A stretch of 64,000 bases of DNA. Origin: Chelatococcus asaccharovorans (lineage in GTDB: Bacteria > Pseudomonadota > Alphaproteobacteria > Rhizobiales > Beijerinckiaceae). The notes under the pieces are model-generated. The model saw nothing but the letters and a program-made list of their open reading frames with translations, made no database searches and had not been told where the DNA came from. The number at the start of each line of letters is the position of its first letter. Position 1 is the first letter of the stretch. Position numbers and translations under genes: made by a program. The stretch lies in contig NZ_QJJK01000001.1 of assembly GCF_003201475.1 (NCBI RefSeq), positions 570,501 through 634,500 on the forward strand. Direction: 5' to 3'. Shown piece after piece: positions 1,090-21,500 of the stretch.

Positions 1090-2280
1090 ATGAGCGACAA
1101 GAAGGGCTCCTTCGACTGGGCCGATCCGTTCCTGATCGACAGCCAGCTGACCGATGACGAGCGGATGATCCGCGATACGGCGCAGGCTTACGCGCAGGAG
1201 AAGCTCCAGCCGCGCATCCTGGAAGCCTATGCCCATGAGAAGACCGACCGCGAAATCTTCAACGAGATGGGCGAGCTCGGCCTGCTCGGCGTGACCCTGC
1301 CGGAAGAATACGGCTGCGCCGCTGCGTCCTATGTCTCCTACGGGCTCGTGGCCCGCGAGGTGGAGCGTGTCGATTCCGGCTATCGCTCCATGATGAGCGT
1401 GCAGTCCTCGCTCGTGATGTACCCGATCTATGCCTATGGCTCCGAGGAACAGCGCAAGCGCTACCTGCCGAAGCTCGCCTCGGGCGAGTGGGTCGGCTGC
1501 TTCGGCCTGACCGAGCCGGACGCCGGCTCCGACCCGGGCGGCATGACCACCCGCGCCGAAAAGATCGACGGCGGCTATCGGCTGATCGGCACGAAGATGT
1601 GGATCTCCAATTCGCCGATCGCTGATGTCTTCGTGGTCTGGGCGAAATCCGCCGCCCATGAGGGCCAGATCCGCGGCTTCGTGCTGGAAAAGGGCCTGAA
1701 GGGGCTTTCCGCGCCGAAGATCGGCGGCAAGCTGTCGCTGCGCGCCTCCATCACCGGCGAGATCGTCATGGACGGCGTCGAGGTGCCGGAAAGCGCGCTT
1801 CTTCCGAACGTATCCGGCCTGAAGGGGCCGTTCGGCTGCCTCAACCGCGCCCGCTACGGCATCTCCTGGGGCGTGCTTGGCGCCGCCGAGGACTGCTGGC
1901 ACCGCGCCCGCCAGTACACGCTGGACCGCAAGCAGTTCGGCCGGCCGCTCGCCGCCACCCAGCTCGTCCAGAAGAAGCTCGCCGACATGCAGACCGAGAT
2001 TTCGCTTGGCCTGCAGGGGAGCTTGCGCGTCGGCCGCCTCTTCGACGAGGGCCGGATGGCGCCTGAGATGATTTCCATCGTCAAGCGCAACAACTGCGGC
2101 AAGGCGCTCGACATCGCCCGCGTCGCGCGTGACATGCACGGCGGCAACGGCATCCAGGAAGAGTTCCACGTGATGCGCCACGCGCAGAACCTGGAGACGG
2201 TCAACACCTATGAGGGCACGCACGACGTGCATGCGCTGATCCTCGGGCGCGCCCAGACAGGGATCCAGGCGTTCTTCTGA
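1090..2280 (+). CDS. gcdH: Glutaryl-CoA dehydrogenase
   Basis: A 396-residue FAD acyl-CoA dehydrogenase, full length for the family. It converts glutaryl-CoA to crotonyl-CoA plus CO2, passing electrons to ETF. The flavin-contact motif [15 protein letters not shown] and the C-terminal [16 protein letters not shown], holding the catalytic base Glu375, match glutaryl-CoA dehydrogenases specifically. [17 protein letters not shown] is also characteristic. The ATG is preceded by GAGG seven bases upstream, 12 bases after the aldehyde dehydrogenase stop, so the two are probably co-transcribed. Downstream the operon is broken by a repeat-flanked DUF559 gene before the CoA-transferase resumes, so the ancestral gcdH-gcdG joint appears to have been split. 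Confidence 0.93.
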
Positions 2281-2308
2281 GCGCCTTCAGCCCCACCCGG
2301 CGGCTACC

Positions 2309-2537
2309 CCACCCGGCGGCTTTGCCGCCACCCTCCCCCTCGGGGGAGGGATCAATCCGAGCTAGGCCGGATGTGGTGAAGCAACAGGCGATGCCATGAG
2401 CGACGCTGACGAGCGAGGCACCGATACCTCCCCTACGCAAGTCGGGTGTTCGCGATTTGCGCACTCATCGTACAACGCGGGAACACCCGCGTTGTGTGCG
2501 GAGGGTGGCCCGGCGCTTGGCGACGGGTCGGGTGGGG
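2309..2537. repeat. Left copy of a ~220-bp direct repeat with palindromic arms
   Basis: It aligns by eye along its whole length with 2905-3122: GC hairpin CGGCGGCTTTGCCGCC, then CCCTCCCCC/GGGGGAGGG, then two inner hairpins (CGCAAGTCG...CGATTTGCG and CAACGCGGG-AACA-CCCGCGTTG) framed by CTCCCC...GGAGGG. Order, spacing and orientation are the same in both copies, and only the DUF559 core lies between them. The first 57 or so codons of the DUF559 frame lie in this copy. Confidence 0.85.
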
Positions 2538-2953
2538 CCGCCCGCCGCCGGCCACGCTCGCATCTACCCACGGCTCTTCCGCGCAAGCTGCGCCATGAGA
2601 TGACCCCGCAGGAGGTCAAGGTCTGGAACTGGCTGCGCGAGGCGATCATACCGGCGGGGTTTCATTTTCGCCGGCAGGTCGCCATCAATCGCTTCATCGT
2701 CGATTTCGCTTGTCTCAAACACAGCCTTGTCGTCGAAATCGATGGTATCCAGCATGGTTTCGACGATCATGCGGCCGATCGGACACGCGACACCAAGCTC
2801 GCGGCCCTTGGATTCCGCGTCCTGCGTTTCACCAATGGCGACGTCGACCGCGACAAGCGGGCCGTCCTCGACACCATCTATACGGCATTGACGGCAAGTG
2901 GCCCCCACCCGGCGGCTTTGCCGCCACCCTCCCCCAAGGGGGAGGGATCATGA
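2396..2953 (+). CDS. DUF559 (VSR-like endonuclease fold) protein embedded between direct repeats
   Basis: The frame encodes 185 residues. Residues about 61-167 form a DUF559 domain: RRQVAINRFIVDFACLKHSLV followed by VVEIDGIQH gives the conserved D (103), E (114), D (116) and H (120) of the restriction-endonuclease-like core. Residues 1-57 and 169-185 (ending PPSPKGEGS) are translated from the flanking repeats and are Pro/Gly/Arg-rich, so the true start may be an internal codon near residue 57. DUF559 proteins are related to the very-short-patch-repair nuclease fold; their biological role is not settled. It interrupts an otherwise compact lysine operon and looks like an acquired element. Function in DNA cleavage is inferred from the fold only. 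Confidence 0.7.
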   Translation: MSDADERGTDTSPTQVGCSRFAHSSYNAGTPALCAEGGPALGDGSGGAARRRPRSHLPTALPRKLRHEMTPQEVKVWNWLREAIIPAGFHFRRQVAINRFIVDFACLKHSLVVEIDGIQHGFDDHAADRTRDTKLAALGFRVLRFTNGDVDRDKRAVLDTIYTALTASGPHPAALPPPSPKGEGS

Positions 2954-3122
2954 AGCTGGACCGGATGGGGCGAAACGACAAGCGATGACGCTGACAAGCA
3001 AGGCACCGATCCCTCCCCTACGCAAGTCGGGTGTTCGCGACTTGCGCACTCATCGCACAACGCGGGAACACCCGCGTTGTGTGAGGAGGGTGGCCCGGCG
3101 CGCAGCGCCGGGTCGGGCGGGG
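2905..3122. repeat. Right copy of the ~220-bp direct repeat
   Basis: Second copy of the 2309-2537 repeat. The hairpin arms CGCAAGTCG...CGACTTGCG and CAACGCGGG-AACA-CCCGCGTTG are perfect here, whereas the left copy has one mismatch in the first arm. The copy supplies the C-terminal 17 codons and stop of the DUF559 frame, and ends about 40 bases before the CoA-transferase start. Confidence 0.85.
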
Positions 3123-3165: not shown

Positions 3166-4377
3166 ATGAGTACGACCGACGACAAGCCGGCGGCGCTTCC
3201 GCCCCTCCATGGACTGAAAGTCCTGGAACTCGCGCGGATCCTGGCCGGGCCGTGGGCCGGCCAGCTCCTGGCCGATCTCGGTGCCGATGTCGTCAAGGTG
3301 GAGCGGCCCGGCGCCGGCGACGACACCCGCAGCTGGGGCCCGCCCTTCGTGGCCAGGGCGGATGGTGACGGTGACCTCTCGGCAGCCTATTTCCACGCGA
3401 CCAATCGCGGCAAGCGCTCGATAACAGCCGATTTCGAGAGCCCCGAAGGCCAGGCGCTCATCCGCCGGCTCGCGGCGGAAGCCGATGTGCTCATCGAGAA
3501 CTTCAAGGTCGGCGGCCTCAAGAAATACGGCCTCGACTACGACAGCCTGAAGGCGGTGAACCCGCGGCTCGTTTACTGCTCGGTCACCGGCTTCGGCCAG
3601 GACGGCCCCTATGCCGCCCGCGCCGGCTATGATTACTTGATCCAGGGCATGGGCGGCAGCATGGATCTGACGGGCGAGCCGGACGGCGAGCCGATGAAGA
3701 TCGGCGTGGCCTATGTCGACATCTTCACCGGCCTCTATGCCACCATCGGCATCATGGCGGCGCTGCGCCGCCGCGACGCGACGGGCCTCGGCGGCATGGT
3801 GGATATGGCGCTGCTCGACACGCAGGTCAGCGTGCTCGCCAACCAGGCGCTGAATTTTCTCGTCTCCGGCGTATCGCCCAAGCGGCTCGGCAACGCCCAT
3901 CCGAACATCGTGCCCTACCAGGTGTTCCCTGTGTCCGACGGCCATATCATCGTCGCCGTGGGCAACGACGGGCAGTTCCGGCGGTTCGTCACGGTCCTCG
4001 GCGCTCCGGCGCTGGCGGATGTGGAAGCCTATGCGACCAACAAGGCGCGGGTCGCCAACCGCGACCAGCTCTGCCCGCTGCTGGCCCAGCTCACGGCGCA
4101 GCACAGCCGGGCCGATCTTCTCGGCCAGTTGGAGGCGCAGGGCGTGCCGGCCGGGCCGATCAATACCGTCGCGGATGTCTTTGCCGACCCGCAGGTGCTG
4201 GCGCGCGGCATGAGGGTCGACCTGGCGAATGCGGCTGCTGCCGGCGGCGCGATTCCCGCGGTCCGCTCACCCATCGTCATCGACGGCGTGCCCCAGGTGG
4301 CGCAACGCTCATCGCCCGCCGTCGGCGAGCAAACAGACGAGATCCTGCGCGATCCGAACTGGGGAGGCCAGCCATGA
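3166..4377 (+). CDS. CaiB/BaiF-type CoA-transferase, probable succinyl-CoA:glutarate CoA-transferase
   Basis: 403 residues, a class III CoA-transferase. The N-terminal LKVLELARILAGPWAGQLLADLGADVVKVE is the family signature, and the catalytic aspartate is Asp185 in VAYVDIFTGLYA. Enzymes of this family move CoA between carboxylates through an aspartyl-CoA anhydride. Position behind gcdH suggests it activates glutarate to glutaryl-CoA, as the homologous glutarate transferase (SUGCT) does. The ATG is preceded by AAAGAGAG, so it has its own ribosome site after the repeat region. The stop overlaps the next start in ATGA, indicating translational coupling. The substrate is an inference from neighbours; other dicarboxylates are possible. 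Confidence 0.85.
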   Translation: MSTTDDKPAALPPLHGLKVLELARILAGPWAGQLLADLGADVVKVERPGAGDDTRSWGPPFVARADGDGDLSAAYFHATNRGKRSITADFESPEGQALIRRLAAEADVLIENFKVGGLKKYGLDYDSLKAVNPRLVYCSVTGFGQDGPYAARAGYDYLIQGMGGSMDLTGEPDGEPMKIGVAYVDIFTGLYATIGIMAALRRRDATGLGGMVDMALLDTQVSVLANQALNFLVSGVSPKRLGNAHPNIVPYQVFPVSDGHIIVAVGNDGQFRRFVTVLGAPALADVEAYATNKARVANRDQLCPLLAQLTAQHSRADLLGQLEAQGVPAGPINTVADVFADPQVLARGMRVDLANAAAAGGAIPAVRSPIVIDGVPQVAQRSSPAVGEQTDEILRDPNWGGQP

Positions 4378-21335: not shown

Positions 21336-21500
21336 CGCGTTCGGCGTCGCGACTTCTTGACAGCGCGCTGGCGCTCCAAAGCGTCCCGATACGCAAAAAT
21401 CTAACGGAAAAGCTCCACGCTGCCGTCGCCCCTCCCCCTTGCGGGGAGGGGTAAGGGGTGGGGGCGCCGCGGCAACCATATTCGCCCTCGTGAGGGCGGC

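Follow-up and report, generated by a model that had tools for sequence, protein, structure and literature searches.

DUF559 nuclease genes lie beside or between BoxC-type hairpin repeats and are candidates for their partner nuclease

INTRODUCTION

Why does a small gene of the DUF559 family sit between two blocks of palindromic DNA in the alphaproteobacterium Chelatococcus asaccharovorans, and does its product act on them? In the 64,000-nt stretch that we analyzed (contig NZ_QJJK01000001.1, positions 570,501 to 634,500; the whole stretch is called the window), the core of the DUF559 gene is all that separates two blocks of about 220 bp, which share one orientation (2307-2537 and 2903-3122). A reading made from the letters of the window (the sequence-only reading) had put this forward as an undescribed system, in which the DUF559 protein might mobilize the palindromes or be mobilized with them, by analogy with the RAYT transposases and REP sequences. 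Here, we find that the DUF559-repeat association is almost certainly real and general across the genomes compared, and that DUF559 is probably the dedicated partner nuclease of the BoxC/PIT/TM class of hairpin repeats.

"Undescribed" holds for only one part of this system. The repeats fit a triplex motif already on record, BoxC/PIT/TM (Holder et al. 2015, PMC4666352), and DUF559 is a known domain; what appears to be new is their link, a candidate new kind of repeat-nuclease partnership whose activity is predicted from sequence. We found no paper linking DUF559 with BoxC or REP in the open-licence PubMed Central literature, although it may have been described elsewhere, and the word DUF559 is absent from the main text of PMC4666352. 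The orphan BoxC repeats, known in Escherichia coli since the 1990s, thereby gain their best enzyme candidate so far, and the link merges their puzzle with that of a common domain of unknown function into one testable system.

RESULTS

The second block, used as a query, returned itself and the first block at 85% identity over its full length, which bears out the earlier description of two palindrome-rich direct repeats of about 220 bp enclosing only the DUF559 core. The blocks contain a 161-nt repeat family at 86% and a 48-nt family at 96%. Each block consists of two stem-plus-head repeats that are inverted relative to each other, with a spacer between them; the unit is made of the head CCCCACCC, a small hairpin (loop 2), and the stem CCCTCCCC..GGGGAGGG, and the second stem of each block is interrupted by a nested palindromic insert. 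Perfect CCCTCCCC..GGGGAGGG hairpins occur three times in the window, twice at the DUF559 locus (mean of 100 shuffles, 0.00). When up to 3 mismatches are allowed, CAACGCGGG..CCCGCGTTG has two sites in the window, and this locus holds both (four strand matches; shuffle mean, 0.03). Since shuffled windows yield none, chance palindromes were rejected. The open reading frame (ORF) of 185 amino acids (aa) matches PF04480 over residues 61-165 (E 5.9e-31; 107 bits versus a Pfam cut-off of 20.6), covering positions 6-108 of the 109 in the profile, and thus belongs to DUF559. Its ends are repeat derived, much as had been read before: roughly 55 codons at the start (to 2562) and 16 at the end are DNA common to both repeat copies, and the true start of the gene is therefore uncertain. 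The locus is the same in the window's genome (G000) and three congeners apart from the nested insert, which G001 and G003 lack on both sides and G002 lacks on the right. There are 34 further repeat matches in the window's genome, one of which (L028) adjoins its second DUF559 gene.

A search for PF04480 in 60 genomes (G000-G059), comprising the window's own and 59 relatives from its order, gave 77 matches in 35 genomes. The order-wide counts use 70 of these loci, mostly with 20 kb each; the seven left out all have E >1e-20 and include five short or distant matches, the second half of a split gene (G012), and a match at a contig end (G037). Two further sets are not random samples: the phylum set takes no more than one locus per genome and consists of the 30 top-scoring ones from 299 genomes, and the named set holds the best 80 of 572, including records from Chloroflexi, Gastranaerophilales, and Rickettsiales. 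A unit of the CTCCC type, defined by a regular expression, lies within 350 bp of DUF559 in 69 of the 70 order-wide loci (on both sides in 47), in 29 of the 30 phylum-wide loci, and in 70 of the 80 named loci, or 69 of 79 once L247, the same place as L098 of the order set, is dropped. By eye, the ten named misses are mostly sphingomonads and their relatives with the same structure, whose stem CCCCTCCCGC..GCGGGAGGGG falls just beyond the regular expression; one miss (L304) is a poor contig. Unit density in the order set was 3.37 per kb near DUF559 compared to 0.080 beyond 500 bp, an enrichment of about 42-fold, and a motif-free count gave 12.9 hairpins per kb within 250 bp of the domain compared to 0.83-1.19 per kb in bins from 500 bp to 9 kb.

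As controls, we examined 30 ParE-toxin loci among 126 matches, 22 of them in DUF559-carrying genomes, and all 19 Y1/RAYT matches, 11 of them in DUF559 carriers. No unit was found at any ParE locus (0/30) or Y1 locus (0/19), and the idea that such repeats stand beside any small accessory gene was rejected. The sequence-only reading had looked to DUF559 genes elsewhere for flanking palindromes, and strong enrichment, rather than none, is what these comparisons gave. Some Y1 genes of the relatives (L133 and L143) have palindromes of their own with other sequences, such as GGAAGGGGTTTGTAACCCCTTCC, and both kinds of repeat-enzyme pair can share one genome, as in G041.

The units are also oriented with respect to the gene. 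Where a head was found, the nearest one pointed toward the gene by 44:9 upstream (44/53) and 39:11 downstream (39/50) in the order set, by 12:2 (12/14) and 11:5 (11/16) in the phylum set, and by 47:9 (47/56) and 45:11 (45/56) in the named set. At 66 of 180 loci, the gene is faced from each side by a complete stem-head unit; the head type agrees in 63 of the 66 and loop 2 is identical in 9. A similar plan recurs elsewhere in the window's genome: 28 of the 34 further repeat matches were analyzed (L005-L032), and 15 of these, at 14 sites, form a pair that runs stem-head, 38-178 bp, head-stem. By reading, the two ends differ in their loop-2 hairpin at all 14 sites, and GATC borders most of the outer ends. 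The window's DUF559 locus follows the same plan in its inner units, with the gene as the spacer. The differing loop 2 agrees with E. coli, where the five close inverted pairs all join a type A with a type B loop (PMC4666352). Pairs with heads outward also exist in E. coli (L336) and Sinorhizobium meliloti (L335), and either arrangement may be the moving unit.

To relate stems to heads, we tabulated 180 loci with each stem read on both strands, so that about half of the readings are expected to be headless; those without a recognized head (54, 152, and 204) were set aside. Among readings with a recognized head, the TTCTCCC stem went with head GGATGAGGG in 48 of 50, the CTCTCCC stem with head GGGTGAGGG in 90 of 118, and the CCTCCC stem with head GG[GA]TGGGG in 110 of 150; the remainder were mostly other head classes (27 and 40), and cross-pairings among the three main types numbered 3. 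Stem type therefore tracks head type (chi-square 654). Removing the duplicate locus alters this table very little, and without it the three main pairings come from 30, 48, and 56 distinct loci. Read backward, each head lines up with the purine arm of the stem it belongs to (T stands over A at one place), which is the match expected of an antiparallel third strand. In the window, both inner units and the left outer unit fit this third-strand rule, and the right outer head differs by one change. An unanchored third-strand score was modest (own 5.95, swapped 5.56, and other side 5.08 of 8) and was replaced by the anchored table.

A small signal of co-variation also joins the proteins to their flanks. 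Within 18 multi-copy genomes (54 loci), the rank correlation between DUF559 similarity and flank similarity was 0.164 (permuted mean, 0.066). The first permutation test gave 1/1000, possibly inflated by orthologous loci, and was therefore repeated with pairs that share a neighbor gene dropped, where 3 of 1000 permutations reached the observed value, or 7 of 1000 when the window's congeners were dropped as well.

We then counted two hairpin patterns per whole genome; one site can be matched by both, whether or not the genome carries DUF559. The window's genome holds 114 and 35 matches compared to 3 and 0 for the reversed patterns. In the order set, the median was 14.8 per Mb in the 35 DUF559 carriers and 0.87 in the 25 non-carriers, or 11.3 versus 0.87 after subtracting 6 units per gene copy (p 1.7e-6); for the reversed control pattern, too, there was a slight difference (0.80 in carriers versus 0.38). 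Phylum-wide, carriers were defined by a best E of <=1e-10 (80 genomes), and 28 genomes with weaker matches were counted as non-carriers; leaving these out gives p 4.6e-21 instead of 7.9e-22. Genomes were called repeat rich if, after removing 6 units per gene copy, they held three times the reversed-pattern control, and this was true for 57 of 80 carriers compared to 13 of 219 others (Fisher p 8e-30). The co-occurrence persisted with one genome per genus, the sole correction for ancestry (rank test p 2e-14), and outside the window's class (p 3e-6). Hairpins of this type number tens to hundreds of copies in many DUF559 carriers. PF01797 (Y1_Tnp) had no match in the window's genus, with matches in 12 of the 60 genomes, and a hidden RAYT was rejected on this ground.

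Using a gammaproteobacterial locus as the query brought up E. coli ycjD, a gene annotated as DUF559. Its neighbors on the two sides in strain MG1655 are sapF and fabI, and the gap on the fabI side contains the stem-head unit CCCCTCTGGGGAGAGGGTTAGGGTGAGGGG and a decayed one. Judged by its sequence, the unit beside ycjD is the BoxC/PIT/TM_ECO motif of PMC4666352, and this adjacency makes E. coli K-12 a ready model. That motif has 23 copies in MG1655 and occurs in >260 genomes; it formed a triplex in vitro, which was unseen in an in vivo footprint, and its E. coli sites are intergenic and more variable among strains (PMC4666352). The PF04480 control search had no match in its E. coli genome; ycjD is missing in many strains, and 3,364 of 5,426 E. 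coli genomes have it. Among 60 E. coli genomes spaced down one search ranking, the 37 with ycjD hold 12-26 BoxC places (median 18) and the 23 without it hold 1-16 (median 4), but since clonal descent was not corrected for, these counts are not independent evidence of cause. For ytfQ-ytfR, 5,375 genomes gave a match, of which 873 reach a coverage of at least 80% of the BoxC-bearing query, and a K-12 MG1655 derivative without the unit was found. Coverage was at least 80% in 5,368 genomes at tldD-aaeR and in 4,992 at zntA-tusA, and two of the three BoxC sites tested look stable by this measure. A different long palindrome, TCACCTCATTCTGACAA..TTGTCAGAATGAGGTGA (L327, 2258-2302), which is not BoxC, overlaps the start codon region of MG1655 ycjD. 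E. coli Q5, which lacks ycjD, has a TetR-type regulator and an RND efflux operon upstream of fabI (L329, 704-6912) in the position that ycjD and sapF occupy in MG1655.

The DUF559 protein has the features of a nuclease. Family alignments show near-invariant R, E, W, Q, D, ExDGxxH, D, and R, and the putative active-site residues R, E, W, R, Q, D, E, D, G, H, D, R, and R are invariant among 29 sequences, with a similar set in 40. Two structures match the predicted model (mean pLDDT 85.7): 3hrl, an uncharacterized endonuclease-like protein, and 3r3p, the EDxHD homing endonuclease I-Bth0305I, in its catalytic domain (profile E 5.4e-5, Foldseek E 5e-5, TMt 0.81). Nothing beyond these two fell below E 0.001; weaker matches included mitochondrial ribosome proteins, 5-hydroxymethylcytosine-specific restriction enzymes, and Vsr, for which the E. 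coli protein (1vsr) is a weak fold match (Foldseek E 0.04, TMt 0.56). These profile and structure matches support a predicted EDxHD/Vsr-type nuclease fold, in line with the VSR-like endonuclease fold that had been suggested at the outset. Only 4 of 180 DUF559 domains contain an internal stop, and partial or split domains add a few; judged by sequence, then, most copies look intact. The window's protein matched only DUF559 and, below threshold, MTES_1575; PF01797 was unmatched.

The sequence-only reading had placed the insertion between gcdH and its CoA-transferase. Of the best 30 gcdH loci, 26 lie outside the genus, and in 7 of these the CoA-transferase follows directly downstream, with gaps of 41-134 bp; by reading, these gaps, from seven other genera, hold no unit and no DUF559. 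Another six of the 26 have it at a distance of 689-1242 bp, and for 13 no CoA-transferase turned up within the 1.1-1.5 kb examined. The four genus members have 743-886 bp between the two genes. The gene and its repeats are thus both present in all four congeners and both missing in seven relatives, with no intermediate seen; the split stands as it had been read, and the empty loci did not turn out to carry repeats alone.

DISCUSSION

How does this pairing compare to known systems? The repeats share with BoxC/PIT/TM the CTCTCCC..GGGAGAG stem followed by a short loop 2 and the head GGGTGAGGG, as well as intergenic sites (PMC4666352). They also agree in the third-strand relation and in having many copies per genome (intergenic position was not scored genome-wide). 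They differ in that many alphaproteobacterial units have a small hairpin in place of the short second loop, and in that PMC4666352 names no partner gene for the published motif. REP/REPIN-RAYT systems likewise have a gene between inverted repeats, dispersed copies, abundance that tracks gene presence, co-variation of repeat and protein, and BIME-like clusters (Nunvar et al. 2010, PMC2817692). As in those systems, the window and most other loci have two inverted palindromic repeats flanking the gene, here with heads facing it. However, the enzyme is a DUF559 nuclease instead of an HUH transposase, and the 19 Y1 loci of the relatives are without these units; since the defining transposase domain is absent, the system is not a member of the RAYT family. 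With the EDxHD homing endonuclease I-Bth0305I, DUF559 shares the sequence and fold of the catalytic domain, but it is a small stand-alone gene in which no intron, intein, or added DNA-binding module was recognized, with no dedicated intron or intein search. Besides the weak fold match to E. coli Vsr, a likeness to Vsr enzymes comes from Caulobacter VsrA, which has a DUF559 domain (PMC12907096). On the other hand, E. coli vsr shares an operon with dcm (as told in PMC12907096).

Judging from these sequences, the nuclease likely acts on the repeats. Linkage, orientation, co-occurrence, co-variation, and an apparently intact nuclease fold can be read from the genomes, and from them we infer catalysis and mobilization by DUF559. 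We see a somewhat better than even chance that DUF559/YcjD is, across bacteria, the missing mobilizing enzyme of the BoxC-type triplex repeats and, beside REP-RAYT, a second and independently evolved repeat-nuclease partnership. In such a mechanism, the EDxHD/Vsr-fold protein would recognize the stem-head structure when it is single stranded or extruded, for instance on the lagging-strand template, and would nick at or near the head, which would allow copying of the repeat pair or its insertion at another place. On this view, the unit with the gene would be autonomous, and pairs without a gene would be derivatives of the non-autonomous kind. In a weaker variant, the nuclease would maintain the repeats by processing their structures during replication or repair without moving them. 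If the nuclease does act on the repeats, this could reveal a new route for the spread of small repeats and possibly a natural enzyme for folded (triplex or hairpin) DNA.

Several observations weigh against mobilization or against a general pairing. No clean insertion with a target-site duplication was found: neat junctions were sought at three congener places, where alignments were noisy, and at two E. coli intergenic sites, and these gave presence or absence, decay, and replacement. At ytfQ-ytfR, the presence or absence of the unit is a replacement of intergenic DNA with no clean duplication, and the E. coli difference that goes with ycjD very likely runs along clonal lines. What stands of the RAYT analogy is the gene between inverted repeats, the genome-wide co-occurrence, and the co-variation signal, and mobilization of the palindromes by the protein is a prediction. 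Holder et al. (2015, PMC4666352) report no mobility genes around the repeats and read their instability as structure driven. DUF559 occupies one site in all four congeners, and by eye, in several sphingomonads and relatives (L261, L274, L280, L286, L290, L301, and L314), it lies just upstream of a dnaG-like gene. Together, the single congener site and the dnaG-like neighborhood suggest that the DUF559 gene itself is not very mobile, and the locus can be vertically stable. A further group of exceptions concerns the pairing itself. One BREX-annotated locus on a Synechocystis plasmid has no repeats that we could see, and two Deinococcus plasmid loci (L330 and L334) have inverted repeats with heads outward. 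Thirteen of the 80 carriers hold <10 pattern matches, and the 13 repeat-rich genomes among the 219 non-carriers, like G036 and G040 in the order set, lack the gene. Rich genomes with no DUF559 match at E 1e-3 or better include G036, G040, G205, G314, G317, G109, G194, G251, and G348, among others; either the gene was lost there or another enzyme does its work. We considered an MTES_1575 nuclease as this other enzyme, but in the six genomes searched it scored above the cut-off only in G040 and G039, inside open frames of ~2000 aa, with no match in G036, and it was therefore rejected as the explanation for these repeat-rich genomes.

Action of the nuclease on the repeats is common ground for two rival explanations, which differ over what comes after. 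Under homing, the repeats would have spread first by another route, and a selfish DUF559 would cut them and insert its own gene, so that the repeats are targets and not cargo. The closest solved relatives of DUF559 do include a homing endonuclease, repeat-rich genomes without DUF559 exist, and the window's gene sits between two similar blocks, as insertion by recombination might leave it. Repeats that spread by themselves should also be common in non-carriers, however, and 206 of 219 are not repeat rich; in addition, the empty gcdH site of the seven other genera holds, by reading, no pre-existing repeat target, and flanks and DUF559 proteins co-vary. Homing is therefore unlikely. Under repair or tolerance, which we hold to be quite unlikely, a Vsr-like DUF559 would remove damage or structures that the repeats cause and would be kept because the repeats are present, with no mobilization. 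Such a role was proposed for a Caulobacter DUF559 protein, VsrA (CCNA_02930), as a mismatch-repair enzyme, with an SOS response in a methylase mutant (PMC12907096), which also speaks against DUF559 as a mobilizing enzyme. The vertical stability of the gene and the co-occurrence of gene and repeats fit repair as well, but repair leaves unexplained why repeats bound nearly every DUF559 locus with their heads mostly inward.

It is highly improbable that the repeats are merely transcription signals of DUF559, or that gene and repeats simply share permissive intergenic sites. Hairpins often terminate transcripts, and the repeats are intergenic in E. coli, as noted above. Against this, 0/49 ParE and Y1 loci have a unit, 33 of them in DUF559 carriers, and many carriers hold copies by the tens to hundreds. 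If intergenic DNA makes up about a tenth of the total, the ~42-fold enrichment near DUF559 exceeds what intergenic location alone could give. PIT elements also had neither promoter nor terminator activity in earlier work (as told in PMC4666352). A partner nuclease that acts on the repeats remains our preferred reading over these alternatives.

FEATURES OF THE LOCUS

Table 1. Repeat units, DUF559 gene, and neighboring features of the locus (window positions)
Feature	Position	Strand	Remarks
gcdH-like acyl-CoA dehydrogenase	1090-2280	+	Upstream neighbor; marks the insertion site
Truncated extra head and part of loop-2 hairpin (CCCCACCCGGCGGCT)	2291-2305	.	Missing in three congeners
Left outer unit	2307-2350	+	Head CCCCACCC 2307-2314; loop-2 hairpin GGCGGC..GCCGCC 2315-2329
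Left outer unit, stem CCCTCCCC..GGGGAGGG	2331-2350	+	Followed by GATC
DUF559 ORF as called, 185 aa	2396-2953	+	Start uncertain
Left inner unit, toward gene	2427-2537	-	Stem arms 2427-2433 and 2500-2505 (by eye)
Left inner unit, loop-2 hairpin and head GGGTGGGG	~2509-2527 (hairpin); 2530-2537 (head)	-	By eye
Nested palindromic insert in left inner stem	2434-2499	.	In G000 and left flank of G002; not in G001 or G003
DUF559 (PF04480) nuclease core (predicted)	2576-2890	+	Family-invariant residues R, E, W, RQ, D, ExDGxxH, D, R, R
Right inner unit, toward gene	2903-2946	+	Head CCCCACCC 2903-2910; loop-2 hairpin 2911-2925
Right inner unit, stem	2927-2946	+	Followed by GATC
Right outer unit	3012-3122	-	Stem arms 3012-3018 and 3085-3090 (by eye)
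Right outer unit, head GGGCGGGG	3115-3122	-	One change from the usual head
Second nested palindromic insert, in right outer stem	3019-3084	.	Missing here in G001, G002, and G003
Family III CoA-transferase	3166-4377	+	Downstream neighbor
Further repeat copy, stem CCCTCCCCCTTGCGGGGAGGG then GGTAAGGGGTGGGG	21430-21468	-	

The presence of the nested palindrome in both blocks here but in one or none in the congeners suggests insertion of a repeat into a repeat, or conversion. The second palindrome of the nested insert is itself dispersed, with matches at seven other places in the genome, and a different nested palindrome splits the stem beside the genome's other DUF559 gene (L001, about 1890-1960). 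Among the plasmid loci, the repeat of the Deinococcus locus L334 is ~56 bp with one mismatch and looks recent, and cyanobacterial plasmid DUF559 genes other than the Synechocystis one (among L331, L332, and L333) have related, A+T-richer units (CCCCTAAATCCCC..).

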